Below, piece by piece: positions 1,740 through 38,493 of a DNA stretch of 64,000 bases (the stretch's first letter is position 1; the number at the start of each line of letters is the position of its first letter). The notes under the pieces were generated by a model. The model was not told the DNA's origin and searched no databases. It saw nothing but the letters and a program-made list of their open reading frames with translations. Made by a program: the position numbers and the translations under genes. Origin of the DNA: Dacryopinax spathularia (lineage: Eukaryota > Basidiomycota > Dacrymycetes > Dacrymycetales > Dacrymycetaceae); NCBI GenBank assembly GCA_037974965.1, contig JBBPFI010000014.1:248001-312000 (forward strand), in the 5' to 3' direction.

Positions 1740-1791
1740 TAATTTTACCACCCCCCTCTTGCAGTACATGTCATGTAGTATCTTTCCTCAC

Positions 1792-4700
1792 TCACAAGTA
1801 GTCTAGAAGCAAAAGCCGCATGAGCCACTTGAGGAAACCGAAATAGAGTCCAACGATCCCGAACAGGGCACCCTCCTCGCGTCCAGGATATCCGATCTTG
1901 CCTTCCTCCACTTCCCCACCACCGTATACGTTGGCCTCCTTCGCATCCTCTTGAGCAGCCTCCTCGATTTGTTCACCCCGGCATTGGCGGATGATGTCTT
2001 TCAGCGTCTTGACCGACTCCCGCAGGTAGGTTGATCGGGGCCAGGCGTCAAGCCGTGGTTGCTGAATTGCTAGTGTCTCCTGAGCTCGGACGAGGGCTTC
2101 TTCAGTCCTTCCAAGGGTAAGCAGGCATTGTGCGATACCTTGACCGAGAGCACCTTGAACGTGTGCACTCCTGGGATACCAGGGTGAAGTGTTCTTATGC
2201 AACCTTCTCATGATAGGCACTGCCGCTTCCGCGCAACTCGTGGTGGTGTAGTCAAGCACAATCTCCCCGGAGGAGGGAAGAAAGAGCGCCTGAACGGCGG
2301 AAAAAAAAAACCATAGATCATCGTGCAGCCGGTTCGATGAAGGAGGCCAAGACCGACACATGACACGTAAGGCTTCGTCCGCCCTCCCAGCCCTCGCCAA
2401 AGCTGCGACGTAGGCATAGTGCAAATGCTCGTCATGTGCTCCATGGGATCCAGATATCCATTTGGCAGACGCATCCGATGTTAAAGACATGACCGCGTCG
2501 AGCCAGCCCCCTTCCATAAGTGTTCTGGCTGCTCTGCAGTAGCTGCATCCCCACTTCTGCTCCCCAGAGTCACAAGTACGGGAGATACCATACTCCTTCC
2601 ATTGAATGTACGGCGATGCGCCGTTTGTGTCCGAGCTGTGGCGTACATCCCATTGCTTCGCTTGTAAGGCACCAACGATCATTAGGTCTGTTGGGGTAGA
2701 GGAGCCGCTGGCCTCGACAGCTGGTTCAAATATGAGCTTGGACTCTTCCCAATATCCATGAGCGGACAAGATCAGGCTGACGGGCTGCATATAGTGAAAC
2801 ACCGTCTCAAACCGCACACGTGCTCTACCCACGCCTGCGAGCATTGACACGATCTCCGAAGCTGCGCAGTCACCCTCAGCCGTATATCCATGGGCCCGAG
2901 CGCTCTCAAGCAGTCGAACAAGAGCGCGAAGGCATTGCTCCTCGCAAAACCCGCCATATTCGTGCAGGGCCATCCAACCCTTCGCTGCACGCTGCCTCGT
3001 CGTATGGTCTCCGCGGCCATAGCGAGAGAGCACATCGAGGCAACGTAGCTCGGGTAGACGTAGGTTCTTCGGTGTTGGACGAGGCAGTGATTGGAACAGC
3101 TCCAGGGCTTCCTCAGCCGCAGCGATAGCTTCTGGTAGCCCACTAACGTCCGAATCGATGAGGTTTTGGTAGGGCAATGCAAGCTTGGCGAAGATGTAAT
3201 AAGCACTGTCCGAGAGACAGTCTGCAAGCCGGTTGCCGTAGACGGCCGGATCTGAGTGATATAGGCGACGGCAGATGGAGAGGGTTTTCTTCATAGTGAC
3301 CTCGGCTTCCGTAAGGTTGTGGTATTGGAGGGAGAGATTCACCGCGTGCGTCTGCAGAGCTCTGGCGCGGATATTGTCAGCCGGCGGTGATCCAGCGTTG
3401 GTCAGCTCTCTGATGAGCTGTTCGCATGCGGAAGAAAGTTGGACTACGATACTGCGGCGATGCGAAACAGTGCCGCGGTCATCAAGGAGTCGCAGGCTGC
3501 CCTCCCGTAACCACCTCGAGAGTCTTTCGAGCAGTTGAGAAGCGTGCTCATCCATGATTGCCATATAGCCCCCATACTGGCCATTGTTCGTTGCCTGAGG
3601 AGTTGTGTCAGTCATTGTTGATGGTATAGATAGGAGGTGTTACCCTGATCCAGCTAAGCAGATCACAAATGGTCGAGACGCGAGATAGCGCGTCCCGAGG
3701 GCCAAACATACAGAAATGAGCAGCCGCCCAGCGCAGGAATCCCACCTTGGAGAATAGAAACGGTACCTTGGGCCCCAGATCGAGCACAGAGCGATTGTGT
3801 TGTTGGACGATATGGGTGATCCAGTAGGCGCAGGCATATCGGAGAGCCTCCTGTAGCGCAATAGGATGTCTTGAAAAATGGCCTGTATACCATGCGTAAA
3901 GCGCTGTGGCGAGCGCCCTGCAGGCAGCCGGCATGCCCTCCTCGTCGTCCTGCTGTGGCGCCACCAGGTCCGGGTGCTGGCTGGGGTTCACGCCGGCCAA
4001 AGCTAGGATGCCAGTGTGGTCCTGGGATAGCTCCTGCGCAAGTAAGCGGAGACAGCCCGATGCCAAGGCGCTGTGGCTACTGGACATAGTAACTCGAAAC
4101 GGAGGGGCCGCTCGGTACCGCACGTAGTCCAAGAAGGAAGAATGAAGGACTTCGACGGATGCTTCACGATCATGAGGCCCACGCAACCATTCGCCGTGAC
4201 CCCCAGCGATGCGCGCTGAGCCCTGTGAATGGCCAAAGTCTGACACTGTGGCCGGATCATCGCCGGCCCATACACTGCCCTCGTCATCAGAGGCAGTCCG
4301 GGATGGCATGCAAGGACCAGCAGAGGAGCCAGATCCGTTTTCGAAGGAAACCGTGGCATCCCTGCGCTGACTCCTGTTCTCGTCATTGTCGCGACCGCCC
4401 TCCTGAACAGAATTACTACAAGAGGAGGCCCGTGTCGGCGAATGAATATACCTCATCCAGGACCAAGGAGCAATCCAAGGCCGCCACCCGAGCCGCACCT
4501 TTGCACGATAACTGATGAGAGATCCAAGGCGATCGAAAATGGCTTCTGGCGCCAGGTCGGGCCGAGAACTGAGATGGCGCATTGCGGAAGTCGACAGATG
4601 ATCTTGAACCGCCGCAAGAAACCCGACGTATAGCTCGTATCCGGCCACAAAATCTTCATCGCCCCAAGGACACATGGAGAGAGCGAAGGCATAAGCCTGG

Positions 4701-6412
4701 TCCATCTGTTCCTCTGCTGAGCCTCGTTCCCTGGTACTCAGCAGCATCTCTATCTGACGATCTGGGTTGATGCAGTTGATGAGGGAGGTGGTGACAACAG
4801 ACGCCCACAGAAATAAATTCCCACTGCGGCTGCACAACATGTCCACCAATAGGTCGTCCTTATAAATGGAGGTGGGAGATAGGCGTTGTTTGAATGCTGG
4901 GTTATCCAGTTGCTGGTGGATGAACACCTCAATATCTGTGTAACTGGTAGCACTTCTGACATCCAAGATTCGCTGCGCAGCAGAGAGCATCGTGCTCGCC
5001 ACAGGCGGGTTTCCGGAGAAGGGTCGGGAGGTCAATATGATTCGTAACCAGGATGGGAGCCTGGACCTTCCTTCTGTGAGAAGGGCGAGGAGTCGCGCAC
5101 CTCCATTTTCGCATTCGTCCAGGCCATCGATCACGACAACTCTACGCGTCGCAGGGGCTGCGCTGGAGTCGAGGGGCCGCACGATGAGCTCGTCGAATTG
5201 CCGTGCGTGTGAGGAAGATAGAAGGCTGCGTTCCGATTCTAGAATGGATCCGACACGAAGCGCGTATGAATGATCCGCTCCCACCAGGTCGTTCACCAGG
5301 GACATAACAAACGTCGATGCACGTGTTCGGTCTTCATATCGCCGATCAAAGAAGAACGAGCTGAGGAGGAGGCCTTCATTGCGCAAACGTTGGGAGATAG
5401 AGTGCGCAATCGCCGTCTTTCCACTGCCCAACGGTCCGGTCAGCCAGTAGATCTGGGCGCTAGGCTCCGTGTTCGGCTTCCGGACCCAGTCCATCATTTC
5501 GTCCAGCAGCCAGCCCCGGGTCCCAGGCATGCAGACCTTCTCCGGGTCCCAGGATGTTCCAGGGACGAGCGGTAAGTTAAGCACCGCGGGAGGCAGTGGG
5601 CCTTGAATCGCTGACTTCCTTGTGAGCACGATAACATGGTGATATCGTAAGCGGTGGGACATACTGCGCATCTGCTCCACGTCTGTCTGCGTCCGCACGA
5701 CAGCCGTCGACATACGGGCAATATCGATGGCCGTACGGCCGTTCATTCTGAACTAGAACACCCGTCAACGAGAGTTCCGTTCCACCAGAGGGCTGTGCTT
5801 ACCGTGAACAGTTCCACTTGTTGATCAAACTTGGCCTTCATGCGTTCAATCTCCTTCCCCTCCGCGGAGCCTAGGGATATCATCGAGCTGAGGCTGCCTT
5901 CCGCATCGACGTGTCGCTTAATCTCCTCCAGCATTTCTTGCAGCGTCCTATGACACTGCGCATCAGCAGAGGGGCGAGTCAGACACCAGCGACGTACTCG
6001 GACATCTTTTCCAACGGTTCGCGAACATCCTCGGTCGTGATACCGGGCCTAGCAACGAGACCGACGATGATGTCCACATGCTCCTTGACATAACCGCTGA
6101 ACTCGGTCCACTCAGCGTGGGCAGCACGAATCATCTATGGTCGCAGGGTATCAACCAGCATATTGGGGAGCCAGGCAGATACACACGACAGACCTGGGAA
6201 ATACCAGCAATCTCCGTCGCCGTGTCCGCAATCCTCGTTTTCACCCCATCAGTTATTGTAGTCACGGTATTATCTATCTTCTTTGACATTTTGCGAGCCC
6301 CAGAAAAGGCCGACATTGTGGTACTCCGGACTGTGCCGGCGATGGACCGCGCGCCAATCGTGTTCTGGCGCTGCAGCGGCGGCGCCGGCTCGTGGTCTTC
6401 ATTCGAAGACAT
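1792..6412 (-). CDS. NLR-1: NACHT-TPR STAND protein, 1452 aa
   Basis: Model: complement(join(1792..3594,3644..5610,5665..5752,5803..5947,5998..6134,6194..6412)). Residues 1-196 form a helical N-terminal domain that looks MLKL/HeLo- or Goodbye-like. The NACHT domain starts near 197, with Walker A GPLGSGKT at 255-262 and Walker B VVVIDGLDE ending near 362. A linker rich in Ser, Asp and Gly follows, then the fungal-NACHT HSSFLDY motif. Exon 6 (853-1452) has TPR-like helical repeats and ends in a hydrophobic helix of about 25 residues. The last intron (3595-3643, 49 nt, phase 0, branch CTGAC) joins NACHT to TPR; without it the two halves look like overlapping separate ORFs. The 54-nt intron at 5611-5664 is stop-free, so its removal is inferred from paralogues. 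STAND proteins of this kind act as signal-triggered oligomerising switches; the trigger is unknown. Confidence 0.88.
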
Positions 6413-7849: not shown

Positions 7850-9480
7850 CTCGCCCTCCCTCACCCATTGGTCTCTTCGCCGTCGCTCCTTCTCCGGTTT
7901 GAGTTGGAGCATCGCCCACAAAGAGCTGGAGCATCTGACGAGCCCTTCCGCTGGGAAGATTCTCACTTGCGTCGAGCCTCTTGTCGATGGTAGAGATGAC
8001 TGCAGCTCAGAGCTTTCGGTTCATCTCGTTTCCTCGTCGGTATCCGGCCCGGGCCAAGCGCACGGGTGCCTTGCCGCGAGAGGGTGCTCAACACTTGACG
8101 GACGCGACCGAAGCTTCCCTGCGCACCTCTCAGCCTATGCCATGCTCTCTTGCCTGGCAACATCATCCGATAATGGGCCCCACACCCGCACGCCTCCACG
8201 CCGGATGCTCCTCTTCCTGACGGTACGTCTTAACCCCCCATCCGGGCGAAGAGCCATTCCTCCGTCATACGCTCACAGATGATACACCCCGCACTCCAGA
8301 CATCCGCTTTCGTGTCCCACCCCGCGCCTGATACCACCTCAGGGACGCGCATGGCAAGGTTCTGGATCGTATCCGCTCAATAGTGATCGTTCCATTTCGC
8401 CACGCCCAGATCGACGATCTTGACGTTTATCTCGAGTGGATGGGTCCCGCTGCCGTTGTTTTCTTTGCGCATCGCAAAGATCGGAAGAGCTTGGGAGACG
8501 GAGATGGGAATTGATTCGCCCGAGGGAGATGTGACTGTCTCGCTCTGCGGCTTGAGGACGGAAAGACATTGCTCGATGAAGCGGTTTGAGATTTCTCAGG
8601 ACGCGGCGTGTCCTGCGGTGGAGTTCACATCTGGGCTGGGGAGGGCGATAAGGATGTTATCGGGCTTCACATCTGCCGCGAATATCCGTCATCCCGGCTG
8701 TGACTCAAATGGAGTGGAAGGGCAGGGAGCACCGGTATGCGTAATCCCACAATCCTCGTGCAAGTACTGCAGCCCTAGCAAGACCTGCTTTGCAACCTGC
8801 TTCACCACCACGACGGGCAACCGTCCACTCTCGTACCTCCTCCTTACGCGGACCAGGTCTTCGCCCAGCACATCGGTCACCAGCACGATATGTTCCCCGT
8901 TCGGTCCCTTGAAGCGAAACTCGTCGAGCAAGGTCAGGACGTGTGGGTATCCGGGGTGCGAGGGGTTAGCGGTAGACGCTCTACGCAGGAACGCAGCTTC
9001 CGATAGGAGGTCTTCTCGCGGTGCCCATTCGGCCGTAAGGATCTTGAGCGAGACGTAGCGATCGTTCCTACCAGGAGTAGGTCAATATTGCATCCAAGTA
9101 GGGTACAACGCATATGCGCACGGTTTGTCCTTCGCCAGCCAGATCGTGCTATACCTCTCCCAACCCAGCTTGCGCACCACGACGTACCGACCTTCCTGAA
9201 ACTCGTCCCGTATGTGCACGTGGTGGTAGCCGCCCTCGCAATATCGGTCCAAAGGCTCCTCCGAAGCGTACCATCTCTGACGCTTCTGCTGCGACTCGGA
9301 CTGAAGTGCCGCGAGCTGACGCGGAGTAAGGGAGGTGAAGGCGCGCGAGGGTCGCGAATGGATTCGGATTGATGGGAGGTGTCGAGCAACTCGAGCCCAG
9401 GCCTGCGCCTGACCTAGAAACCACCTGACAGGGGGACGTTTGGTGTTAGGCGGGAGTCTCGTAATAAGCTTTGCCGCCAT
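7850..9480 (-). pseudogene. SRPK-like kinase pseudogene (duplicate of the kinase at 1-1180)
   Basis: It aligns with the first kinase through the leader, lysine loop, catalytic loop HTDVKPDN and DLG motif, and has the same two intron positions. It carries at least two nonsense changes relative to its twin: a Cys codon to TGA just after the ITH(T)DVKPDN exon's AAS segment (near 8599), and a Trp codon to TGA after the DLGVAKWNDHY segment (near 8382). The glycine loop reads LGWERYST where the twin has LGWGRYST. The kinase signature continues to about 8230 (SAGCIICERMTEEWLF), followed by a third stop; a degenerate C-terminal part seems to reach about 7850. The left limit is approximate. Confidence 0.8.
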
Positions 9481-9699
9481 TCCTCGCTGGTCTCGATCCC
9501 AACGATGCTGCTCGCTTGAGAAGAGACGGTTGAGCGACAACCGGGTAGCGACGATCTATGACGGGTTAGGCTGGAACAAAATCCCCGGAGGTATTCTCGT
9601 TCGTCCAAGCACGAATCTCCCCAAGTTCCCCCACATCATCCCACAACATCCCACATCATCCCACACACCCCTTGCTTATCCCTAACTTGCTCGCGAATC

Positions 9700-11648
9700 G
9701 GGCCAATTCCTCAGATACCCTCGACACGTCACCCTATTTCCTCTGCTGCCCTCGATTTTTGAAAATTCCTCGTCTACCCTTGCACCTAGGCTTGCTCTTG
9801 GATCACCAGCTCACGTTGTCTTCATCTGCTCAGCAATGACTTTTGTCTACAAGGCTCAGCTTTTCTCTTCTCTTGATGAGGCGGTCATTGCTTTTACTAT
9901 GCATTCCAACATGCAAGGTGCTTCTCATCGTGTTAAGAAGCGGGACACTCGGCGGCTTGTCCTCACCTGTGATACTGTCGACTGTCTCTTCAAAGCTTCT
10001 GTCACCGCTAAAGAGGATGGTTTTCAAGTCATCACTCTGGTACCCAACCATACCTGCCAGGGTCATGTGAAGAAAGACCACGCTGCATCAAGTCGCTCAG
10101 CCTATGTCATGCATGAGGTAGGGAAGAACCTTGTCATGACTCGAGATGTCACACCACGCATCATCCAAGAGTCGCTTAAGCGCCAAGGCATCAACATCAA
10201 CTACGAAGCAGCTTGGCGTGCTAAACAAAAGCTGCTGGGCAATAGTATCGAGCAACAACGCACCAAATTTCAGAAACTGCCAGGTTATGCCAGCCTCCTC
10301 TGTGCCTGGGATCCCGATGCGACTATCTCTTTTGAGCTCAACTCCGACAACTCCTTCAAATCGCTCTTCATCTGTCCATCTGCTGCCAAAACAGCATGGA
10401 ATTTCCTCTGTCGGTTTGTGGCCATCAATGGTGCTCATACAAAAATGGCCTTCGAGTATGTTCTGCTCCTTGCCACCGCCCACGATGCCGAAGACCAGAT
10501 CGTCAACCTTGCATGGGCTATTGCACCCAAGGAAGATACCGACACCTGGTCACGGTTTCTTCAAAAGCTTCGGGAGGCACTCCCAGGCCTTGACAGCCCC
10601 AACACAGTTCTTATATTGGACCGTCAAAAAGGCTTGCTGAAGGCAGTTGCGACCGAGCTCCCAAACGTGACCAAAGCATCTTGTACCCGGCATCTTCTTG
10701 CAAACACGATCGACAAATTTGGTGTTCGAGTCAAAGACTATGTCTGGAACCTCATATATGCAAAAACCGAGGCAGTCTTCAAGCGTCATCTCACTGAGCT
10801 ATGGGAGAACATTAATCATGCTGCAGCGGAATACATCAATAGCATCGATCACAAGCGTTGGGCTACATATGCCTTCCCCGGGATACGCTTTGGGAAGGTC
10901 ACCTCAAACTCAGTCAAGTCGATGAATGGTGTTTATGTTGCGGTCCGTGCCTTGCCAGCAGTTCAACTCCTTGATTACCTCTGGACCGACCAGATGACAA
11001 AGTTTGCAAAACGTGCATCAGATGGAGCAAGGATGATGGGACCTTTCACACTGACAGCCTTCAACCCCTTCACAACAGAATGCAGTGAAGCCCTCAAACT
11101 CGCTGTTTGGGGATCCAGTGCATTCAACGCAAAAGTGAAATCGACGGTGCATCTTGATGCAAAAGAGTATGAGGTCACTCTTCAACCAGAGATCCGATCC
11201 GGCAGCTACACATGCACCGAGTTCCAAGAATATCTTATCCCCTGTCGGCATGCAATTGCACTCTGCCACCATTCTGGATTGGCACCTGGCAATTTCATCG
11301 GGCTTCATTACACCACTGAAGTCTTTCGTGCCACATACAGCAACCCCTATCCACCTATTCTCCTTTCAGACTTGGAGATTGACCCGAACATCAATGCCCC
11401 TGGACTGAAGCGGAAGCGAGGAAGGCCAGCAACAAAGCGTCTTCAGAAAGGGCAGACAAGAAGGAAGGGCATAATGATGAGAAAGTGTCAAAGATGTGGC
11501 GAGCTTGAGCATCCTCTACATACATGCTAACTTGTCGCCATTGTTGCTTGCCCTGTAATGAATACTTGAGGGCATCCGAGGAATTTGTTGAATTCGAGGG
11601 CATCCGGGGAATTGCTTCAATGCTAAAGGGCATCCGAGGAATTGGCCC
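9700..11648 (+). mobile_element. Mutator-like (MULE) transposon, 1949 bp
   Basis: Ends are GGGCCAATTCCTC at 9700 and its inverse at 11648. Each end has three ~20-bp iterons of the type AATTCCTCGGATGCCCTCGA, spaced about 30 bp apart and pointing inward from both sides (9704-9785 and 11566-11645). Flanking 10-mers CTCGCGAATC (9690-9699) and CCCGTGCATC (11649-11658) match at 7 of 10 positions, as an old MULE target duplication would. It encodes one transposase ORF and has inserted into another inverted-repeat element. Confidence 0.75.
9836..11530 (+). CDS. MULE (MuDR-type) transposase, probably inactive, 564 aa
   Basis: Single uninterrupted ORF. The N-terminus (about 10-90) resembles a MULE DNA-binding region with Cys/His positions (LTCDTVDC, NHTCQGH). 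Residues about 185-320 match the MULE catalytic core: FVAINGAHTK, TDTWSRFL, LDRQKGL, CTRHLLAN and VTSNSVKSMN. The first acidic position, usually DGAH or DAT, is Asn here. The family's TSNxxExxN glutamate is Lys. A SWIM-like segment (TCTEFQEYLIPCRHAIA) follows, then a GRP AT-hook-like basic stretch and a C-terminal CX2CX4HX4C knuckle (CQRCGELEHPLHTC). Cut-and-paste activity therefore looks lost although the frame is open. It could still bind the iterons (inference). Confidence 0.88.
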   Translation: MTFVYKAQLFSSLDEAVIAFTMHSNMQGASHRVKKRDTRRLVLTCDTVDCLFKASVTAKEDGFQVITLVPNHTCQGHVKKDHAASSRSAYVMHEVGKNLVMTRDVTPRIIQESLKRQGININYEAAWRAKQKLLGNSIEQQRTKFQKLPGYASLLCAWDPDATISFELNSDNSFKSLFICPSAAKTAWNFLCRFVAINGAHTKMAFEYVLLLATAHDAEDQIVNLAWAIAPKEDTDTWSRFLQKLREALPGLDSPNTVLILDRQKGLLKAVATELPNVTKASCTRHLLANTIDKFGVRVKDYVWNLIYAKTEAVFKRHLTELWENINHAAAEYINSIDHKRWATYAFPGIRFGKVTSNSVKSMNGVYVAVRALPAVQLLDYLWTDQMTKFAKRASDGARMMGPFTLTAFNPFTTECSEALKLAVWGSSAFNAKVKSTVHLDAKEYEVTLQPEIRSGSYTCTEFQEYLIPCRHAIALCHHSGLAPGNFIGLHYTTEVFRATYSNPYPPILLSDLEIDPNINAPGLKRKRGRPATKRLQKGQTRRKGIMMRKCQRCGELEHPLHTC

Positions 11649-12226
11649 CCCGTGCATCCCAAACGGGCCCATACCATCCCGCACTATCCTAATACTCCCT
11701 GAATGTTCATTATTTCTCCCAGATCAACCCCCGAGCTACCCCACACCAACCCAAATTCTCCCAAATCCTCCCACATTCTCCCATACTCCCCCACACAACT
11801 TTTCTCGTGCCACGGATTTTTTTAGCATTGCCACTGATTTTATCAGACCAATGTTGTGGGAATGTGTGGGAGGACATGGGGAATATTGGGCTGCTGTGGG
11901 AGAACTGTGGGATAGATTGGGAGGGTTTGGGAGGGTTTGGGAGGGTTTGGGAGGGGTTGGGAGGGGTTGGGAGGGTTTGGGAGGGTGTGGGATGTGTGGG
12001 GCCATGTGGGATACTTCAGGACATTCAAGGGAATCTGAGGAGCATTCGGGATAGCGAGTGGTGGAAAGCTTCCGATGCCTTATGCACGGTATTTTGTCCA
12101 GGGACGATCGGTCGGAAACGATCACCAGCCCTTGGACCCCTACGAGGAACGCAAGGTGACGTCATTCCTTTTTCATCATTCCTTCATCACCACTCCGTTG
12201 GTGCACATTCCAGGCAGTATCTATCC

Positions 12227-23559: not shown

Positions 23560-23586
23560 GACGCCATTGGATTCCAATGCGGGTGT

Positions 23587-24247: not shown

Positions 24248-25784
<1,537 letters not shown>

Positions 25785-26387: not shown

Positions 26388-29300
26388 ATGTCCGACGATA
26401 ACGAAGAGGCATCTAGCTCTGTCACTCGTCAAACGAAGATTGGCTGGCGCTCGCTCGCTAGCACTGTCCGCACATCCCCCGCTATGTCTGCCCTACGCCG
26501 CGCCAAACGCGTTGCGGACGCGGTGGAGGACGCGTATACCGCCGCTGTAGACGGTGCGAAGACACGTATTGCAGATGCCGCAACCGATCTAGCTGGTATC
26601 TCTCACGTATATCCTGTCACTCTACGCCATAGTGAGGTACTGACGTTCAAGATAGACGCTGGGACAGACGTCGAAGGAATGGGCCGAGTTCGGCGCGTAT
26701 GTCGAGAAGTATTCAAGCCTAGTGCTTGACCTCTTGTCGGCGGGAGATAGCTTGTCCATCCCGGACATCAAGGAGAACCTGATGACGCTCGATAAGTGCG
26801 TGATCCAATATCTTTAACAAGTTGGATGCTGAGTTTGAATGGGGACTAGGACACTGCAGGAATTGCTCAAGGAAGCGCAACGACAGGCCGAGGAAGGGGC
26901 GGTACATCAGCTGATTCACATGGAAGACACTGGGGAGAGGGTCGCAAAGATGAAGGCCAAACTCAACGAGGCACTGGATCTGTTCAACGTGCGTCGTCCT
27001 GACGCAGATATCTGTTAGTGGCTCACCGGTCTCAGTTTACGTTCAATGTGCGGAACACGCTCGACGTCGCTCGTATCTCCAGCGCTGTAAATGAGATTCC
27101 AGCTATGCAGAAGGATATCCAGGATATTCGTGGTGCGCGAAACCCCGTACAGTCGTGGATGCTCCCATCTTGACGGTGAAGTAGCATCGCAAGGTCCGCT
27201 GCCTCGCGTCATAATGGACTTGCCCGTCGTCCCCCGCTCTTCATGGGATCCGGCAAAGGTCTGCATGCCCGGAACGCGCAACTGGATTCTGGATGAAATC
27301 GTAGACTGGACCAAGAAGCCAGATCTACCGCAAGGCGCACAAATCTACTGGCTCACCGGTGTCGCGGGATGCGGCAAGACGACTATTTCGCACTCCGTCA
27401 GCCAACGGTTGCACTCCGCCGGTGTTCTCCTCCACTCATTCTTCTTCGACCGGGGGGAGAAAGATCGTGCGCACGCCTCCGCCTTCGTTCTCTCGCTCGT
27501 CCACTCCTTGGCAGCCGCCGATCGGCAACTCGCTTTTCAAATCGCCTCTGTGCTCGAGAGCGACCGAAATGTACTGTCTTCGTCCGCGGCTCGACAGTTT
27601 CACGACCTGGTGGTCGCGCCATTTCGCTCGAACCAGAGGAAGCCCAAGCAGTTTGTCATCGTCCTCGATGGGCTTGATGAGTGCGAAAAGGAGGGAACGC
27701 AATTGCTCTCTTTGCTGACCGAACATCTCTCGATGCTTCCCCCTTGGTTACGCATGGTGGTCACTTCCCGTCCATTTTCGGGTGAGACGTTGACAGACAT
27801 CAACCACACCCTCATTCTCAGGCGAACCCTCAATCTCAGCGCTACGGAGAACGAGAACGATGTGAAGCTGTTCCTCTCGGAACGCCTGCACCAGATCATG
27901 CGCAGACAGCGCTCATCCGTTGCGTGGCTAGATGACGACGTGCTCGGCCGGCTGCACTGGCGCAGTGGAAATTTGTTTCTTTGGGCATCGGTGGTCACCA
28001 CCTTCCTAGCGCGCGCCACCAACCCAGAGCGACAGATCAAGGCATTGATCGCCGACCCAGGAACTGCATCTGTCGAGGAGCCCATGGACGAAGCGTACGA
28101 GCTCGTGTTATCCAAATGCCCGTGGGACGACGAAGATTTCGTGGCCGGATATCAGTTGTACGTTGGTTTCCTCTTGATGGCCAGAGAGCCGATGTCCATC
28201 GCCACGATACAAGCTCTCTCCACTCGGCCGGATATCGACCCACAAGCGATCTTTAACCCGCTCATTTCTCTGCTGGAGTATGTCGATGCACATGAACACT
28301 ACAAGGTCTCAGGCGAAACCTGGTCTGAAACGGACCACTGTGCCTCGGAGTCTACTGAAGACACGAGGGACACCGATCGGATAGACGGACCTGACAAACC
28401 TGAAGACGGGAGGTCCCCGGAGAAGCCGTTGCACGCGAGTCCACTTGATAGCGCCGCGGAGCCGATACCATCGATGACGGGTGCGGCCGAGCCTCGCGAT
28501 ACACTTACGAACAGATCACCTAACATCGCTTCGCCCGATGTGAGTCCCCAAGAGTTCTCTCATTTGCGGTCTACCGCTCCCACCTCCGCTTCTATACAGC
28601 TCGACCTGGAACGGCCGACAACTGTCACGACGGCACTGCCGCCGCCCATGCAAATCCTGGGCGATGTAGAGGTATGGCCGACGCCGATTTTGAAGGGGTA
28701 CCGCGAGAATTACGTGGTGAAACCTGTCCACACAACATTCCTAGACTACATATGGCATCGAGCAGAGTCCCGATACCGGATCGATGTGGCCAAAGCGCAT
28801 GCAGACATAGCATCGGGCTGCCTTGGCTTGCTCGCGACCGAGCTCGAGGAAGACCACACGGGCATGCTGTCCCTGATGAATGATGTGATGGGCAAGAACC
28901 CTGAGCCTGGCTCACAGTTCTCTCTTGCTTGGCGTTCCGCGGAGCTCCGGCTCAGCCGTCTTCAGGCGTGCAGGGAGTGGCGTGTCTATTTCGAAGCCTA
29001 TCCTAGGTTTTCCAGAGCAGCTATCTCCTATGCCTGTTGGAGATTCCCCGATCATATTCTCCGGTTGGACCTGCCTGCACCGTCCTTGACCGATGCTTTG
29101 GCGCGACAATTTACTACGGACGCATTGCTACATTGGGCTTCACTAGCCTTTTGTTTAGAATGGCAGGTCGCATCAAGTATGAGCTTGCCAGGCGGTAGGC
29201 TCTGCGAAGTGGTGCTATGGCTAGAGGTTAGCACGAAATCTCCAGCAACGCCAGATCATGATCTTAACCAGTCGGCAGAAATATGACACACTTGACCCTG

Positions 29301-31156
29301 ACCCTCTGAGTGACTTGATGGGTGAAGAAGCCGTGAAGGCCTTGGAGATGTTATCCCGGTGGCTTCGAGATCAACGCTTGCTCTTACAGGAAGAACTAAG
29401 GCCATGCGATCGGTTCCAAGAATTCGGCATATGCGCGGAGCTCTCTCGGACGACCGTGGCTCTTTCGCACCGTCTGGCAGAACGAGGACATTCAATAGAA
29501 CCTTGTCTTCTCGCCCAAGTGGTTCAAAATAACGCTGCCAGCATGCCATACGAAGCAAGAGAGCAAAGGTTATTCATGATCGAGGCGGCCATCCGCATCT
29601 ACCGCGCCCTGCGTACGTCCGATCCTACCAAGTACAGTCCTCTCTTGGCGCACTCCTTGTACGAAGCCTCTTTCCTATTCTCCAGCTACGGCGAGCGTTG
29701 TGCTGCTGAGGCGATAGCAGCCGGTCTTGAAGCCTTGGAGTGTTTCGATATAGAAGCCGACGCATCCGATATTGGCAGGTATATGCCCTATCGATTAGAC
29801 GCTCTAGCCCTTCTTGCTGGGCATCACCTCATGGAGGTGAATAAGGCAGACGCTGCCGCCACGGGCATGAAACGGTTCGCTCAATGTAACATCGACTTGT
29901 GGAACGAATATACCACCCTGCGCCTGCGCATATTCTCCATGACGAAAGCCTGTGGCAGTCAGACCCAGGCGCGGGATGCAGCTTGCAGCCTTCTTTGTAC
30001 TTTTCTGCCCTGGACGACGTGGCTGAACAAGACGCTGCAAGCGTGGGCCGTCTCAGGATACAGTCGCCCCTGTGACCTCTTGCAGATCGTCGGCTTGGTG
30101 TTGTTTGCGGCGGGATACCTTCGTGAATCCCAACTGTTGCTATCCAGGGCACTCGATCTCATCAAAACGAATGAACAGTGGCGGTACGCTGTGCGAGAAG
30201 TAAAACGGGTCAAAACTTTGATTGCGCTCTGCGACCGACGAATCAACCAGGCTTCGCTTTCCAGCGTCACTGAACTCGATTTTTTTTCCCAGTTCCGGGG
30301 AGAGCACGTGGACATGACTTGCAATCATGGTTGCACGCTCTCTTGCCAACATCATGATGTGGTGAGGGTGCTCCTGGAAGCTGAATGGTACGCCGAAGTG
30401 CTGGAGTTCACGAGTGAACCGTCCGCACACTGGATTTCAGGGCAGCACACCGAGGCTAGTTGCACTTTGCACCTTTGGCACATCACAGCCCTCAAGGGCG
30501 TCGGTCGATACGGGGATGCGCTGGAGCTTCTGTATACCACTTTAGTACTGATGCCGACCTTCGAGTCCGAGAACGCATTGCCCGTATGTGTATTATCATG
30601 GAAGCTCTTCGAGGTGACGGAATCCGTGCTGATCACTATGGATGAGTACGGCATCCCTTGGGAAAGGTGCTGCAGCCTTCAGAAGATTCTGCGGCTTCTC
30701 AAGTGGATGGTTAGCGATTCCAATTTCGGTAGACAGTCCGTTCCCCATGAAGATATGGGGGAATGGCACGATAGGAGACATGCATCTGTGAGGACATTTC
30801 TTGCGCAAGGCTTGCTCGCAGCGGGAGAGCCAGAGGAGGCAGGAGAGCTGGCTCGTCGCGCTTTGGAGACTCAGCAGAAGCGGCTTGCGGTGTGGCCGCG
30901 CTCAACGATTCTGCAAGAGTCTGTCAAGAAGCTGAAAGCAATCATACGCCAATGCAATCCCCAAGCAGACGAACAGGATGAGTCTGGAACGCCGTTGCCG
31001 TATGGCGAGGACCAAGCCCCAGAGGTAGCACGTGCGGCTGAAGAGGACGAGATAGCTCAGCGCAACCCAGCGAATGCCGCCTTGATCGTGCTGGTAGAGT
31101 GGTACTTTCTTTTCCTGCGTTTTCTTCTCGGTCTCTTCTCTCTCGATTTTATATGA
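26388..31156 (+). CDS. NLR-3: NACHT-TPR STAND protein, 1504 aa
   Basis: Model: join(26388..26606,26656..26795,26850..26988,27036..27132,27185..29226,29279..31156). Six exons match the other three copies in position and phase; exon 1 is again 219 nt. Walker A GVAGCGKT is at 257-264; Walker B VIVLDGLDE follows about 100 residues later. After the NACHT comes VNHT-type beta structure, a Pro/Ser/Glu-rich linker, and HTTFLDYIWHRAESRYRIDV. The intron 29227-29278 (52 nt, donor GTTAGC, branch CTTAAC, acceptor CAG) links NACHT to TPR in phase 0; unspliced, the frame hits a TGA at 29284 and the TPR part appears as a separate ORF. The TPR exon encodes 625 residues ending in a conserved hydrophobic helix. 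NLR-3 and NLR-4 are closer to each other than to NLR-1/2. Confidence 0.88.
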
Positions 31157-31779
31157 GATCGAATGCCTATGCGTATACCGAGAGATACTTGGTAAAGCTA
31201 ACCGGACTATGAAGTTATTCTCGTATCTGTGTACTTAGCCGCTGGACACGGTCCATATCGCTGCATCACTGCCGACCGCGCCAGAAACAAGCGCCGGTCC
31301 CTCGAGTCTCCATCGCTCCCATATCAGCTCCCAAGCTAACGATGAAGATTATATGAATGAGCTTCCTACGTTGTACTTCCCGCAGTCTGTCTGAAAGCAA
31401 ACTGTTGCGTCAACAGCTGATACAATGATCGGTCGCGACTGCATTTGCGGAACGACATCGATCATTGTCATGTCTCGCATTTGTCACCAGCCATCGACCG
31501 GCCACTGCACCGTGCACAATGGTTAGAGACTGTAGTATTGTTGTTTCGGGCGACAGATACTCTTGTCTGAGATGCCTGATCCGGCTACAACTATCCGAAC
31601 GCGACCATACGATGGAGCACTGCATAACTTATATTCCACCGCGGACTTTCTGATCACACACTTCAGCTGTGCTTACTCTGCTGCAGTTCCCCTGCTTGAC
31701 CGTGAAGGATAATCCACAACATCGCACTCTCGACCTCACAGGTCCCGCCCACTACAGCTCTTCCCCATGAAGTCAACTC
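31157..31779. other. Segment duplicated downstream of NLR-4
   Basis: From about 31230 to 31780 this resembles 38560-38594 joined to 39118-39633, the region between NLR-4 and the 341-aa gene. It lacks the 523-bp element present there and so acts as the empty site. No gene is seen. Confidence 0.6.
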
Positions 31780-32523
31780 ATGCGCTACCTTCCCTCTTTA
31801 CTCTCCGCAGGTGACACACGCAAGTCCATTCCACTCTCGCCTTCGAGCTCAAGCATGAACCTCGATTCTGACAGCCCATTGCTCCCTTCATACCCTAACT
31901 TCCCCGCCTCACACTTCCCCTGGTTGCCCATCAAAGGACAACTCCCAAATACGCCGTTGGCATCGCCTGACCTGCCTGTCGATACCGCGCACTTCCTGCC
32001 CCCTCTCGGCGCGCCGCTCCTGGGCACACTCATAGACGCGCGACACTAGTCCTCCTGCTCGCCTCTCATACTCTCCCCTCATCGCTCGCTCGATCCTTAG
32101 GAGACGGAGATGCGAACCACTAGGTGTACTCTCATCTCGCGCCGAGCTACCAACAGGCCATTGGTTGGACGAACGAGCGCCTGAGGGAAGCGGCCGGTTT
32201 CCGGGGGTAGGGAATGGAGGCACGAGCGGAAGAGATATGCGCCGGCCTGATATGGCTTCTTGGTCTGTACTTCCAGCAGCTTTCACAGTAACTTTGACGC
32301 GCCTTACCTGATCTAACTTGGAACCAACGAGTTCTTCCTCATCCGCCAACATACCAGCCCTCACCCGTCGCCTACCTCGCCGACGCTCCACAGGTTCCGA
32401 CGGTCCGCCGACGCACTCCAACTCTTCACTTTTTGTTGTATCCAGAGAAGAGTCTGCAAGCTTCCGGCCATCTCACCTCGTCTCGTCACTGGTCAGCTTC
32501 TTTCCCGAGGGTGCGATGCACTA
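31780..32523 (+). pseudogene. Decayed copy of the 341-aa gene
   Basis: The first 89 codons match the start of the gene at 39634 closely (LSPSSSSMNLDSDSPLLPS, GQLPNTPLASPDLP, GAPLLGTLIDARH) and then hit a TAG where the intact copy reads CACCAGGTC, because of a small deletion. Downstream, matching pieces continue in shifting frames, for example the segment encoding EFFLIRQHIT near 32330 and the PEGTML region near 32510. The right end is approximate. Confidence 0.75.
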
Positions 32524-33674
32524 GAGATAGGCCGGTGACGAAGGTTCGAGGAGTCTTCCGTACTACTGACGCCGGCGCTGCTGGAAGAGGACAATCGGAA
32601 GGGGGTAGGAGTTGTGCGATTTGACGATTAGGAGGAAAGAGTCGGTGCGATATCATGGATTGATAGCGAGACACGCTCCGTGTGTGGGCACTGTTGCACT
32701 CATCTCGAGTGAACACCGTATTCCCTCAGCCAATCAGAGTCCGGCATCTTGAATAAGCGCCCGACTCCACGTGACCCATCAGCTTCCGGTTCACAACCAG
32801 CCAACTTCTCGCTTGGAATTGGCCTCCCCTCTCGAACAGTGAATCTCCACAGCTCCTCTCATCTACATCATGTTCCACACCCCGAGCTTGCGTCAGCATT
32901 CTTATTACTTGCAATACACATCTACGTGTGCAAGACCGGCAGCCTTGGTGTCGCCTTTCAAACCAAAGCAGGGCAGAGCCGCCTCTCAAATGGGAGTTCT
33001 CCGGACCGCTCGATTCTCTCTGTTTCCAGATCAGCAGCATTTCTGCTACCTGTCGATGTTTCCTCTTCAGCATGCTGCGTGCACTGCCTGGCACCATCCT
33101 GCTACTCTTGGCTGACAACTTGGATCTCGAACTTCACCATCGCCAGTGGACCGCGAGACTGAGCATGAAAACAAATACAAGTGGTATCAATCAGCAATCT
33201 GCTTCTTGTCAACATACGGATGCCTGTTGGTAGCAGACATGCAAGAATTGCAGAATGTGTGGTCGGACGATGCTAGCTCCGGGACACGGTTGGGAGCAAA
33301 TGTCACTGCCCTGCGTCTCCGGGAAATCGCATGTCCCGTCAGCGGATTTTGCGCGAGAAAGCAGCAAAGACTTCCATGCAAGAAGTCGTGCGCGAATCCA
33401 CGCGCTCTGCAACCCGTATTTCCGGTTTCTGTACCTCTCTCACACGCTTAAACCGACTTTCCTCTTCCACGTATTGGCCCTATTGCATTCCGGCCGGGAA
33501 AGCGAGGTGAGCAATCCATTTGGTCGAGCGCAGGACTTGCCAAACTCATGCGATTGTTTCTGAACTGCAAGAACTCTCCTAATCCCGAAGTTCGACTGGA
33601 TTCCTCGGGATCTCAACGCCTTGAATATTCCTGCATGTAGCGCACTTACATATCCTCTTGAAACCTGGACCATC
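32524..33674. other. Gap between the pseudogene and NLR-4
   Basis: Short overlapping ORFs in several frames show no recognisable domain or mutual support. I see no gene. The right part should contain the NLR-4 promoter. Confidence 0.35.
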
Positions 33675-33827
33675 ATGCTCCTTATCCTCTCTATCAGCTG
33701 GAGGGCGTCTCCTCTCCTCTCCACTCTGTCTCCTCTCCCCCATCCCTGCGTACCACCTAAAGGCACGAAATCCCAACTTCGACATTCAGACCTTCAACCT
33801 GGTCCATCTCTGCAACGACAGAACACG

Positions 33828-36800
33828 ATGGGAGCACGCACCATCTCCGACTCCATTCGCACCATGCGACCTTTGTCGACGCTTCGTAAGGGCAAGGCGG
33901 CCATCTCCGACGTTTTAGATGGGATAAAGACGAGCGTTGCTAACGGCGCCACGGAGCTCGTCGGTGTCTCGAAGGTGTGTACCCCTATCGCTATAAGATG
34001 TCATCGTGTTGAACTATCTGTAGACCTTGGGCGCGACTTCAAACGAATGGAAAGAGTTCGGAGCTTATGTCCACGAGTACTCGACCCTTGTTCTTAACCT
34101 CTTGGGAACGAAATCCAGCGTGTTCAGCCAGGATATCCAAGAGCCTCTGCAATCGTTGGACACGTGCGTCACCAGTCAGACACCTGATAACGAACGCTCT
34201 GCTGACGAGGTGTACTAGGACGCTACAGGACTTGCTCAAGGAAGCGAAAAGATACGCAGAGGAAGGAATCGCTCAGCGCTTGATTTCTCACGTCGAGAAC
34301 AGCGACGAAAAGGTTCGGCGAATGAAGGCCAAGCTCAATGAGGCCCTGGATCACTTTAATGTGAGTCCTTCGTGGCGTGTACACGAGCTGAATTTGGGAC
34401 TGATCTCTTCCAGTTCACTCTCAACGTGCGGAACATGCTCGACGTTGCTAGTACTGTAAACCACGTCGTTCCATCTATGCAACAGGAGATCAGGGATATC
34501 CGCGGTCCGTAGAACTTTTCACAGCGGTCTTTGCTGCTCGCTTATCGTTCGACAGCATTGCAGGGTACTCTGCCTCGCGCCATAGCAGATCTCCCTATCT
34601 TTCCCCGATCCTCTTGGGATCCAGAGAAGGTCTGCATGCCCGGCACACGCAGTTGGATTCTGGGAGAGATCATGGGCTGGATCCAACTTCCCAACTCGCA
34701 ACACGGCTGCCAGGTTTATTGGCTCACAGGCGTCGCCGGAAGCGGAAAGACGAGGATCGCTCATTCCCTGGGTCAACGGGCACACGATGCCGGTATCCTC
34801 CTCCATTCATTCTTCTTTGACCGGCGCGAGAGAGATCGTACGCTCGCCTCCGCCTTCGTTCTCTCCCTCGCCCGCTCCTTGGCGGCCGCCGATAAACAAC
34901 TCGCGTTCCACATAGCATCTGTGTTGGAAAGCGACCAACAGGTACTGTCTTCATCCGCCGCTAGACAGTTCCATGAACTGGTGGTTGCGCCATATCGTTC
35001 GAAGAAGACCACGTCGAGGCCGTGCGTCATCATTCTTGATGCGCTTGATGAGTGCGAAAAAAAGGGAACGCAGCTCCTTACCTTGCTGATGGAACACATC
35101 TCGATGCTTCCCCTTTGGCTACGCATTGTGATCACTTCGCGTCCATTTTCGAGTGAGAAGTTGGCAGACGTCGACCACACCCTAATTCTCAGACGAACCC
35201 TGAATCTCAGCGCTACGGAGAACGAGAACGATGTGAAGCTGTTCCTCTCGGAACGACTGCACCAGATCATCCGCAGACAACGCTCATCCGTTGCCTGGGT
35301 TGATGACGGCGTTCTCAGGCAGCTGCACGCGCGCAGCGGCAATTTGTTTCTTTGGGCATCAGTGGTCACCACCTTCCTAGCGCGCGCCACCAACCCAGAG
35401 CGACAGATCAACACATTGATCGCTGCCCCAGGAACTGCATCTGTCGAGGAGCCCATGGACGAAGCGTACGAGCTCGTGTTATCCAACTGTCCGTGGGATG
35501 ACGAGGATTTCGTGTCCGGATATCAGTTGTACGTTGGGTTCCTCTTGATGGCTAGAGAGCCGCTGTCCATAGCCACCATGGAGACTCTCTCCATCCGGCC
35601 GGATATCGACCCACAAGCGATCTTTAAACCGCTGATCTCTTTGTTGGAGTATGTCGCTGCGTATCAACACGAGGTGCCAGGAGAGACCTGGTCTGGAACG
35701 GACTCCTCCGCATCCGAGTCTACAGAAGACATGAAGGACACCGACCAGTTGGACGAATCTGATGAGCCTCAAGACGACTCGTCCACGCGGAAGGTGTTGC
35801 TGGCGAGTGCACTTGATTGCACAGAAGCCATGTCGTCTCCGCCTGGCGCCGTCGAGCATTGGGAGAGAGTCAATAGAGGATCTGATCTCGCTTTGCCCGA
35901 TGGGGATGCTGCAGAGTTCCGTCCTTTTCCCTCCAGAAAGCTCGACCTGGAACAGCCATCAACGGTCGCAACGGCAACGCCGCCACCCATGCAAGACGTA
36001 GGTGATGTGGACGTATGGCCGGACCCGATTTCGAAGGAGTACGGCGAGAATTATGCGGTGGAACCCGTCCACACGACATTCCTAGACTACATACGCCATC
36101 GAGCAGATTCCCGATACCGGATCGATGTGGCCAAAGCGAATGGTGACATAGCATTAGGCTCTCTTGGCTTGCTCGCAACTGAGCTTCAGGAAGACCGCAC
36201 CGGCATGCTGTCCCTGATGAATGATGTGATGGGCAAGAGCCCTGAACCTGGCTCGCAGTTCTCCCTTGCTTGGCGTTCTCCGGAGGTACGACTCAGCCGC
36301 GTTCAGGCGTACAGGGAGTGGTGTGTCTATTTCGATGCCCTTCCTCGATCTTCCAGAGCAGCTATTTTTTATGCCTGTTGGAGGTCCTCGGATCACATCC
36401 TCCAGTTGGACCAGTCCGAACTCTGCTTAGCCGATGCTTTGGCGCGACACCTTACTACGGACGCAATGCTACGTTGGGCTTCACTAGCCTTTTGTTTAGA
36501 ATGGCACGTTCATTCAACTCCGCGCTGGCTAGGTGGTGGGCTCTGCGAAGTGGTGCTATGGCTACAGGTTAGCACGAAAGCCCCAGCAGAGTTGGACGAT
36601 GATTTTATCAGTCGTCAGACGTATGAGACGCTGGACCCTGGCCCCTTGAGCGACCTGATGCGTGAAGAAGCTGTCAAGGCGTTGGAGATGATGTCTCGGT
36701 GGCTTCGAGATCAAGGTTTGATATTGCGGCAAGAACTGAGCCTGAGGCCACGCACTTCTATCAGAGAAATCTTCACAAGCGATGCACTCTCTCGGACGAC

Positions 36801-38493
36801 TCTGGCTCTGTGTCATCACCTTGAAGAACGAGGACATATCATAGAACCATGTCTCTTCGCGCAAGTGTTACAAAACAACGCTACTGATAGCACTTATGGA
36901 GAAGAGGGGAAGAGTATGATGGGACGAGCTATCGCCATCTACCGCTTCCTTCGTACGTCCGATCCTGTCAGCTACAGTCCTCTCCTGGCGCACTGCTTGT
37001 ACGAAGCCTCTGTCCTATTCTCCGACTACGGCAAGCCTAATGCTGAGGCAATAGCAGCCGGTCATGAAGCCTTGGAGTGTTTTGATATAGAAGCTGAAGA
37101 CTCCCTCATTGGCAGGTATATGCCCAATCGAATACAATGTCTAGATCTTCTTTTCAAACGCAATCTCATGGAGGTGAATAAGACAGAAGCTGTCGCGACG
37201 GGCATGAAACGATTCATTCGGGGTAATATCGACTCATGGAACGAATATCTTACCCTACGCCTCAGCATCTTCTCCCTGGCGAAAGCGCGCAGCAGACATG
37301 TCCAGGCGCGAGATGCCGCAGGCAGCCTGGCTTCTGCTTTGCTACCCTGCCCGAAGTGGTCAAACAAGGCAATGCAAGGGTGGGATGGCCCACAGCGCTG
37401 TCGCACTTGTGACCTACTGCAAATCGCCGGCTTGGTGTTGTTTGCGGCGGGATACCACAATGAATCCCAGCTGTTGCTCCAGCGTGCGCTCGATGTCGCA
37501 CTGTCTGAGCCGTTGTTTTGGGCTCGGAGAAAAGACGAACAGGTCAAAGCGCTGATCGCACTCTGTGCACGGCGTTTGGACCAGCTTTCACCTTCCGACT
37601 GCGGGATGCAATTCTTTCCCCAATTCCGGGGCAAACAGGTGGATATGTATTGCAGCGGTGGGGCTCCTGAACGGTGTACACATTGTTGTGTAGTGAACTT
37701 GCTCCTGGAAGCTGAATGGTACGACGAAACGCTGGAATACACGAGCGAAGCGTCAGCACGCTGGATTTCAAGGCGCTACACCGAGCCTAACGGCATTGCG
37801 CACTTTCGGCATATCAAAGCCCTCGCAGCGGTCGGGCGCTACGGGGATACGCTGGAGCTTCTATACACAACCTTGGTATTGAAGCCAGCCTTCAAACACC
37901 TGTTCCTTCGCAAAGAATTCGATGAGATGCTCTTCCACGGGACAGAGTCCGTCCTGATAAGCATGGTCGAACGCGATGAGTCTTGGGAGGCGTACGGATG
38001 CAGCATTCAGAAGATCTTGCGGCTTCTGCAATGGATGGTTCACGAGTCCGAGTTCGAACCGCACGGTTTCCTTTCCGATGCAGATAAGGAAGCTTGGTAC
38101 AATAGGAGATATGCGACTGCGAGGACATTTCTTGCGCAAGGTTTGCTGGTGTCTGGAGAGGCAGAAGAGGCAGAAGAGCTTGCTCGTCGCACTTTGGAGA
38201 CTCAGCAAAAGCGGCTTGCGGTGTGGCCGCGGTCGACGATCCTCCAAGAGTCGGTCAAGAAGCTGAAGGAGATCATAAACCGATGCAATCCCGCAGCAGC
38301 CGAACAGGACGAGCCTAGACCGACGGTACCGTATAGCGAGCACAAGGCCGCAAAGGTAGCCCTTGCGGCTGAAGAGGACGAGATTGCGCACCCCTACGCA
38401 GTAACTGCCGCCTTGATCATGCTGGTGGAGTGGTACTTCCTTTTCCTCCGTCTTTTTCTCGATCACTTCTCACTTGAGTATGTAGAGGGCTGA
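33828..38493 (+). CDS. NLR-4: NACHT-TPR STAND protein, about 1468 aa
   Basis: Model: join(33828..33974,34024..34163,34219..34360,34414..34504,34556..36567,36619..38493). Walker A GVAGSGKT is at 232-239; Walker B is VIILDALDE. The last intron (36568-36618, 51 nt, donor GTTAGC, acceptor CAG) is a multiple of three without a stop, so raw translation reads straight from NACHT into TPR. Paralogues show it is normally removed, but retention would simply add 17 residues. The start is uncertain: sequence matching the first 18 residues of NLR-1 continues upstream in frame (GPSLQRQNT) but has no ATG at the homologous place. The nearest ATGs are 33828 and, upstream, 33675 (1519 aa). The C-terminal hydrophobic helix is present. 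Confidence 0.85.

Follow-up and report, generated by a model that had tools for sequence, protein, structure and literature searches.

How did one locus in the genome of the basidiomycete Dacryopinax spathularia come to hold several NLR genes, and what might their products do? The window analysed here, a stretch of 64,000 nucleotides of contig JBBPFI010000014.1 (C14; positions 248,001 to 312,000), contains four such genes, for which a first-pass annotation had given coordinates and a common plan of six exons. Both were borne out by splice models, which were assembled by hand from the sequence and represent predicted structures. NLR-1 (1792..6412; exons 6412-6194, 6134-5998, 5947-5803, 5752-5665, 5610-3644 and 3594-1792 of 219/137/145/88/1967/1803 nt; 1452 aa) and NLR-2 (12227..17181; exons 17181-16963, 16905-16769, 16718-16574, 16523-16436, 16381-14115 and 14065-12227 of 219/137/145/88/2267/1839 nt; 1564 aa) are located on the minus strand. 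NLR-3 (26388..31156; exons 26388-26606, 26656-26795, 26850-26988, 27036-27132, 27185-29226 and 29279-31156 of 219/140/139/97/2042/1878 nt; 1504 aa) and NLR-4 (33675..38493; exons 33675-33974, 34024-34163, 34219-34360, 34414-34504, 34556-36567 and 36619-38493 of 300/140/142/91/2012/1875 nt; 1519 aa) are located on the plus strand. All four predicted frames (1452-1564 aa) are open, with no internal stop, and the reported 219-nt first exon was recovered in NLR-1, -2 and -3, exon 1 of NLR-4 measuring 300 nt. The start codon of NLR-4 is uncertain, as a later ATG is possible, and its intron 5 (36568-36618, 51 nt) is in frame and without stops.

Self-BLASTN of the window, then with its left flank added, was used as a dot plot and confirmed the proposal that the genes form two pairs of segmental, in fact tandem, duplications. 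Unit A (SRPK kinase gene and NLR-1 or NLR-2) is represented by 1766-6928 and 12205-17799 (73-84% identity) and, in its SRPK part, by C14:247770-249256 and 256073-257556 (87% identity), and unit B (NLR-3 or NLR-4 and a passenger gene) by 26653-32618 and 34021-40486 (73-75% identity), with E = 0 for the main repeat blocks of both units. The repeats are direct, in the same order and orientation, and in both pairs they run past the coding regions to include the 3' gaps and the second gene; in unit A the similarity also spans the 5' flank and all introns, and in unit B it excludes exon 1 and the 5' flank. The outcome named in advance as speaking against the proposal, a lack of similarity outside the coding regions, was therefore not observed. 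The earlier estimate of a 6-kb copy unit holds for unit B (6.0 kb) and is too low for unit A (about 6.7-7.2 kb), both taken without later insertions. The suggestion of recent duplication had to be given up: the pairs are not very recent, with dS of about 0.36 and 0.56, four-fold divergences of 25% and 32%, and 12-49% of residues differing between pair copies depending on the part compared. Pair A is not a mosaic, as a permutation test of its four-fold divergence gave no significant change point (p 0.21).

Judged by its sequence, pair B cannot be read as a clean copy of the whole gene: exons 1-2 are surely, and exons 3-4 probably, much older than the remainder of the gene. In exons 1-2 of NLR-3 and NLR-4, 23 of 31 four-fold sites differ, a silent-site saturation like that between distant members of the family, and introns 1-4 are near-random (41-65% identity) versus 76% for intron 5. 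Divergence declines in steps along exons 1 to 5 without a single sharp edge, and a tree of the N-terminal module (N-module) neither joins nor rejects the grouping of NLR-3 with NLR-4 (p-AU 0.487). All these observations would fit two old tandem NLRs, with 5' ends dating from about the time of their split from NLR-C, whose NACHT, solenoid and 3' parts were homogenised later by gene conversion. We consider this history possible, though rather improbable, because the younger part also takes in the 3' gap and the NLR-unrelated passenger gene at similar divergence (73-75%) over ~6 kb, and because fewer steps are needed if a duplication began inside the NLR, or if the 5' module was swapped afterwards.

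Under the tandem duplication that we prefer, the neighbouring genes were copied together with the NLRs. SRPK-1, whose 5' part lies in the window (1..1180, minus strand; exons 1180-822, 767-433 and 370-...) and which ends left of it at C14:247499, is open and encodes a 521-aa SR-protein kinase with the yeast SR kinase Sky1 and SRPK1 as best PDB matches. It is found 3' of NLR-1 on the same minus strand, so that the order noted earlier, with NLR-1 and NLR-2 each downstream of an SRPK, is reversed; moreover, the second copy, SRPK-2 (8073..9556, minus strand), is a pseudogene with gaps and five in-frame stops in the SRPK-1 register, two of them within the well-aligned first 400 codons. NLR-3 and NLR-4 were correctly placed upstream of the same gene, which is open behind NLR-4 (39730..40659, plus strand; 309 aa, no Pfam match) and broken behind NLR-3 (31855..32616, plus strand), with stops within each of three matched pieces. 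Each pair thus combines one defective neighbour with two intact NLRs, as would fit a passenger, and a functional partnership of the SRPK or of the pair B gene with the NLRs is less likely. Mobile elements have inserted into the 3' gaps of three of the four NLRs. A MULE transposase block between SRPK-2 and NLR-2 (9557..12099, plus strand; open frame 9686-11530), with the 7-bp direct repeat GACGATC on either side, is absent from the matching place in unit 1; a MITE-like palindromic element 3' of NLR-1 (1322..1741) is absent from the corresponding position in unit 2; and a terminal-inverted-repeat element 3' of NLR-4 (38595..39117), with the 10-bp flanking direct repeat CCTGGCATAT, is absent from that in unit 3.

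The four paralogues reported earlier exist, yet they are not the whole family. On the same contig, 32-53 kb to the left of the window, there are three further relatives, again open and with six exons, which brings the cluster to seven genes, all with open predicted frames of 4.0-4.7 kb coding sequence. Genome searches with exon 6 and the N-module found no match elsewhere in the genome. Outside the two young pairs, exon 6 shows 21-30% identity between members. Of the birth-and-death process previously proposed, the births are evident as tandem copies of different ages, including the two young pairs, but no NLR deaths were seen: the seven proteins gave 175 tblastn matches in the 124 kb of C14:188001-312000, none outside the modelled exons, and the only broken genes in this region are passenger genes.

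By their NTPase module, the predicted proteins of the cluster classify as NACHT (STAND) NLRs. All seven loci score above the Pfam cut-offs for NPHP3_N (24.8 bits) and NACHT (26.7 bits), with 95-113 and 29-36 bits, respectively, in NLR-1 to -4 (96.8 and 29.8 bits in NLR-1), and all seven aligned proteins contain a P-loop of the GxxGxGK[TS] type. In NLR-1 the module is preceded by an N-module and followed by a disordered insert, a TPR-like solenoid and a hydrophobic tail. The N-module, split over four exons, can be called weakly MLKL-like: MLKL_N matches NLR-4 with 20.1 bits (E 4.8e-4) and NLR-3 with 16.9 bits (E 0.0047), both under the Pfam cut-off of 27 bits and similar to scores that unrelated families reach in single N-modules. 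Of the six N-modules scanned, four were without an MLKL_N match even when E values as high as 1 were allowed, and profile comparison with solved structures in the PDB found nothing significant (best E 0.047). The C-terminal part is best read as a TPR-like solenoid with degenerate repeats. Its exon-6 model predicts 27 helices and no strand (pLDDT 61), and Foldseek retrieved mostly TPR-type proteins (class taken from titles for some, presumed by us for others) at low TM-scores of 0.09-0.31 on the query among the matches listed. Pfam TPR models stayed below cut-off in all four exon-6 proteins (TPR_12 in NLR-2, E 3.2e-5), and the self-BLASTN of the window showed no internal DNA repeat in exon 6. 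For exon 5, the AlphaFold model reached a pLDDT of 35, and PDB profile searches gave nothing usable, the one P-loop match (E 0.0006) being a kinase.

In agreement with the first-pass annotation, the pairs differ in linker and solenoid sequence. Four of the seven NLRs carry in the NOD region an insert called disordered from its composition and absence of alignment. As delimited by alignment, it comprises 116 aa between the NACHT core and an H-S-S-F-L-D-Y motif in NLR-1 (4157..4504, minus strand), 215 aa in NLR-2 (14628..15272, minus strand), 144 aa in NLR-3 (28285..28716, plus strand) and 134 aa in NLR-4 (35656..36057, plus strand). The NLR-2 insert has grown by internal tandem duplication (14614-14905 and 14914-15199, 80% identity). 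The comparison of dN/dS that had been proposed showed that the solenoid changes faster than NACHT (omega 0.42-0.77 vs 0.25-0.26). Positive selection is not demonstrated, as the solenoid stays below 1 and the pair A insert, with omega up to 1.14, has a bootstrap range that spans 1 (0.70-1.98). Omega exceeds 1 in 32 of 277 overlapping windows in pair A and 5 of 283 in pair B, but these windows were chosen post hoc and are no test of selection.

A three-part plan of helical bundle, STAND switch and superhelical sensor, like the one proposed here, is known from plant CC-NLRs such as ZAR1, and a ZAR1 chain was the second, not significant, match to the N-module profile (E 0.34); the plant proteins combine LRR with NB-ARC, whereas the cluster combines a TPR-like solenoid with NACHT. 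Another group in this genome, the NACHT-WD40 NLRs of contig C11, shares the NPHP3_N/NACHT module at 26-29% identity, but five of the six ORFs scanned have WD40 repeats (the sixth reads as a retroelement), and their long ORFs end in different, less hydrophobic sequence. The BaMLKL NLRs, in which basidiomycotal MLKL_NTD-like N-termini are joined to NOD domains (accessible part of PMC9815663), resemble the cluster, whose presumably helical N-module with weak MLKL_N similarity likewise stands ahead of NACHT; with MLKL_N scores under cut-off the cluster is a candidate member of this class, and it adds a TPR-like solenoid, a disordered NOD insert and a shared hydrophobic C-terminus, none of which was met in that part of the source. 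Fungal NACHT-TPR NLRs, as described in the accessible part of PMC4986451, likewise show NACHT with a TPR-like solenoid, expansion of paralogues and N-terminal domains whose history can differ from that of the NOD, although the repeats in the cluster are degenerate and exon 6 shows no internal DNA repeats. The accessible parts of these sources already describe basidiomycete NLRs with an MLKL-like N-terminus as well as birth-and-death evolution among fungal NLRs (PMC9815663, PMC4986451), and Agaricomycetes are NLR-rich, with 72 hits per species (PMC4986451). The seven NLRs are a single-locus family and a well-formed case of a type of fungal immune gene that is already known.

Taken as a whole, the locus is in our view probably best explained by a seven-gene, single-locus family that expanded through tandem duplication, the youngest events giving NLR-1/NLR-2 with a 3' SRPK and NLR-3/NLR-4 with a 3' passenger lacking a Pfam match; afterwards, mobile elements entered three of the four 3' gaps and one passenger copy per pair decayed, while every NLR was kept open. 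The C-terminal solenoid may sense a non-self or altered-self ligand, upon which NACHT would exchange nucleotide and presumably oligomerise, and the clustered N-terminal helical modules might turn against a membrane, with damage to the cell or its death as the result, in the manner of HeLo, MLKL and plant CC domains. STAND regulators without a role in defence or non-self recognition, acting for example in development or signalling, would agree with a solenoid omega below 1 and with the lack of an internal DNA repeat in exon 6, in contrast to many fast-evolving fungal NLRs, whose repeats are highly conserved (accessible part of PMC4986451); we regard them as unlikely, since a local tandem cluster whose NLRs are kept while passengers die, a weakly MLKL-like N-module and a solenoid faster than the switch form the pattern to be expected of non-self receptors. 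An assembly artefact placing the two haplotypes of a dikaryon side by side, suggested by copies that are adjacent and similar, is very unlikely given their silent-site and residue differences, their private insertions, and their position in a single 1.06-Mb contig, where genes of other kinds separate the pairs.

The least ordinary features of this family of receptors are the disordered insert and a hydrophobic, aromatic-rich C-terminus of 26 residues. The latter aligns without gaps at a conserved position in six of the seven proteins (1795..1872, minus strand, in NLR-1; 31076..31153, plus strand, in NLR-3; the same element at the 3' ends of NLR-2 and NLR-4) and is absent from NLR-A, the outermost member. 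It follows a hydrophilic, mostly acidic linker and ends in L-x-[YF]-[ILV] and at most three further residues. On the Kyte-Doolittle scale the six tails peak at 1.36-2.16, on both sides of the value of about 1.6 commonly taken as the transmembrane threshold, which does not establish a spanning helix. Tentatively, the tail could be a second membrane element that docks the resting receptor, the N-terminal bundle hitting the same membrane on activation, with the N-module (exons 1-2 or 1-4) a cassette separable from switch and sensor. Outside subscription papers we found no membrane tail on fungal NLRs in the literature, a weak indication that none has been described; the main text of PMC9815663 nowhere uses the word 'transmembrane'.

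The compact cluster, with two pairs copied in tandem, insertions private to single copies and passengers that have died, documents cleanly and in a natural setting the way in which genes for fungal receptors are duplicated and retained. To our knowledge, there is hardly any NLR of the Agaricomycetes with a known ligand or output, and the tail, if it binds membranes, would change the picture of resting fungal NLRs.

Hand-built splice models following conserved GT-AG boundaries in this 29.2-Mb, 24-contig genome gave an open six-exon frame for each of the four NACHT genes in the window (C14:248001-312000), namely NLR-1 (6412-1792, minus strand, 1452 aa), NLR-2 (17181-12227, minus strand, 1564 aa), NLR-3 (26388-31156, plus strand, 1504 aa) and NLR-4 (33675-38493, plus strand, 1519 aa, with an uncertain start). 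Their introns measure 47-59 nt; such shortness, like the type of NLR, would be in keeping with an Agaricomycete. Intron 5 of NLR-4 (36568-36618, 51 nt) is in frame and free of stops, so that exons 5 and 6 form a single open frame of 1326 aa; a protein retaining this intron, 17 residues longer, is possible. All four proteins consist of an N-module encoded by exons 1-4 (196-224 aa), a NACHT core (367-370 aa), an insert that looks disordered (116-215 aa), a part beginning near the motif H-[ST]-[ST]-F-L-D-Y, and a helical solenoid, encoded by exon 6, whose end is hydrophobic.

Self-BLASTN of the window and its left flank revealed two direct tandem pairs. The units of NLR-1 and NLR-2 (pair A; C14:247770-254928 and C14:256073-265799) span an SRPK gene, the gap and the entire NLR, to which some 0.5 kb of the 5' flank is added; those of NLR-3 and NLR-4 (pair B; C14:274653-280618 and C14:282021-288486) extend from NLR exon 2 to the end of a 3' gene. 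Minus inserted elements, the units measure approximately 6.7-7.2 kb and 6.0 kb, respectively. The first-pass annotation, which described four six-exon paralogues arranged as two segmentally duplicated pairs, is thus borne out, the repeats covering a gap and a second gene besides the NLR. Unrelated genes lie between the pairs (18936-25078: GH47 mannosidase, alpha-amylase and a protein kinase matched in its C-terminal half). Three of the four 3' gaps carry an element that has no counterpart at the matching place in the other unit of the pair. Behind NLR-1 this is a palindromic MITE-like element, behind NLR-2 a block that contains an open MULE transposase frame, and behind NLR-4 a TIR element flanked by a 10-bp direct repeat; all three are most likely younger than the duplications. 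Self-BLASTN also found TIR elements at 43112-43657 (126-bp repeats, 95%; ends 74-75% like 11568-11651 within the MULE block) and 49371-50040 (140 bp, 99%). Cytochrome P450-like frames at 48266-49027 (17.6 bits, below cut-off) and 59732-60292 (113.6 bits) lie within an inverted repeat pair (47503-48595 and 60245-59035, 66-69%) and are possibly a second duplicated gene family.

Three further NLRs without internal stops, each of six exons, lie to the left on the same contig: NLR-A (C14:199336-195089, minus strand, 1332 aa), NLR-B (C14:204142-208548, plus strand, 1377 aa) and NLR-C (C14:211349-215813, plus strand, 1400 aa), with inserts of 7 (practically none), 50 and 47 aa. The NACHT/NPHP3_N module scored above cut-off in all seven proteins; exon 6 identity is 61-62% inside the pairs and 21-30% in other comparisons. 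Among the best candidates scored, exon 6 queries from both pairs and the NLR-C N-module had no match outside C14:195-287 kb, and an exon 5 query also reached distant NACHT exons on contig C11 (26-29% identity). The genome holds at least 21 NACHT matches (7 on C14, 6 on C11, 8 on C8), and a long ORF with WD40 repeats was found in five of the six C11 regions scanned. The sixth (C11:1042001-1051000), unlike these, has a NACHT exon with several short frames and one retroelement frame behind it; it may be a broken NLR, in which case it would count as a death outside this cluster. Within the cluster, the proposed birth-and-death history stands for the births, as tandem copies; NLR deaths were not found in C14:188001-312000 (124 kb), where the seven proteins gave 175 tblastn matches, all of them within modelled exons. 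The region also contains many repeats (C14:218-247 kb, 65-86% identity) and a Ty3-type retrotransposon (C14:238617-244681) with open gag and pol-type frames (RT, RNase H, integrase, chromodomain), which probably inserted recently since its two flanking 326-bp direct repeats are 99% identical.

Among the co-duplicated passenger genes, SRPK-1 is an open three-exon SR-protein kinase of 521 aa whose best solved relatives are Sky1 and SRPK1. Its copy SRPK-2, read in the SRPK-1 register, is interrupted by five in-frame stops, two of them within the well-aligned first 400 codons, beyond which it is gapped. Over these codons silent-site difference exceeds replacement-site difference (pS 0.205, pN 0.068), and SRPK-2 thus probably died late. 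SRPK-related matches at C1:2438142-2454340 and C8:388794-404992 agree in score and spacing, in opposite orientation, which suggests that these contigs have a segment of about 16 kb in common. The gene 3' of NLR-4 is open (309 aa) and without a Pfam match, its copy 3' of NLR-3 is broken, and a search for a third copy found none. Each pair has therefore lost one passenger with both NLRs open, which argues that selection retained the NLR copies rather than the passengers.

The two pairs differ in their divergence. In pair A (dS 0.36, dN 0.18; introns 71-86% identical) 143 of 571 four-fold sites differ, and no change point is significant (p = 0.21). In pair B (dS 0.56, dN 0.23) 157 of 491 differ, and here the divergence changes strongly (p = 0.001, the lowest value that 1000 permutations allow): 23/31 in exons 1-2, 9/19 in exons 3-4, 12/31 in codons 1-80 of exon 5 and 113/410 in the remainder. 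Introns 1-4 are 41-65% and intron 5 is 76% identical; the N-modules of NLR-3 and NLR-4 share 51% and their NACHT cores 78% identity, and the N-modules of NLR-3 and NLR-C share 49%. The 5' module of pair B therefore has a longer separate history. A module swap, a partial duplication that was joined to exons of greater age, or a 3' part homogenised afterwards would each fit these sequence patterns; an AU test did not reject the two N-modules as sisters (p = 0.487) and cannot choose among these histories.

By simple pairwise counting, omega is 0.21-0.26 for N-module and NACHT (pair B N-module dS being saturated at 1.76), and in three solenoid parts 0.74, 0.77 and 0.48 (pair A) and 0.46, 0.61 and 0.42 (pair B). 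In the suggested comparison, the TPR-like sensor evolves at approximately 1.6 to 3 times the rate of the switch, which does not prove adaptive evolution. For the insert, omega is 1.14 (0.70-1.98) in pair A and 0.62 (0.40-1.06) in pair B. Exon 6 is predicted to be all-helical (27 helices, pLDDT 61, pTM 0.53), and its Foldseek matches include OGT, LGN and APC/C chains, with low TM-scores on query (0.09-0.31) among the 50 matches listed.

At the opposite end, NLR-4 and NLR-3 matched MLKL_N with 20.1 and 16.9 bits, both below the cut-off of 27; the other four N-modules scanned had no match, NLR-2 being left out because it is 88% identical to NLR-1. A published study describes MLKL_NTD-like N-termini of basidiomycete NLRs under the name BaMLKL; they have a core of four helices plus an additional helix at the N-terminal side, and certain of them score just under assignment thresholds (PMC9815663).

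The last 26 residues, followed by 0-3 more, align without gaps in six of the seven proteins, with a mean cross-group identity of 32% (about 26% for exon 6 otherwise). Their similarity score was higher than in any of 10,000 within-tail shuffles, whether or not sisters were shuffled jointly; as the register was set by eye, NLR-A excluded and composition only preserved, this figure shows that residue order is conserved, not that the tail has a function. Among 19-residue stretches the tail ranks first for hydrophobicity in five of the six proteins and second in NLR-B (peaks 1.36-2.16); NLR-A, without a tail, reaches -0.12. Since one or two residues of the peak stretch are charged (counted by eye), a helix that docks or packs and one that spans are equally likely. 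Structure prediction gives a low-confidence helix behind a low-confidence linker. A membrane role for the tail is possible, though less likely than not.

By analogy with the relatives HeLo/HET-S, MLKL and ZAR1, for which such a mechanism is reported (in part in PMC10197012), the solenoid of the cluster NLRs would sense a ligand, the NACHT would switch and oligomerise, and the N-module would attack a membrane. Tandem copies in which the solenoid changes fast and the switch slowly are consistent with sensed targets that diversify under one output. The cluster belongs to an already known type of NLR, and its value lies in a clean duplication record and a conserved tail.
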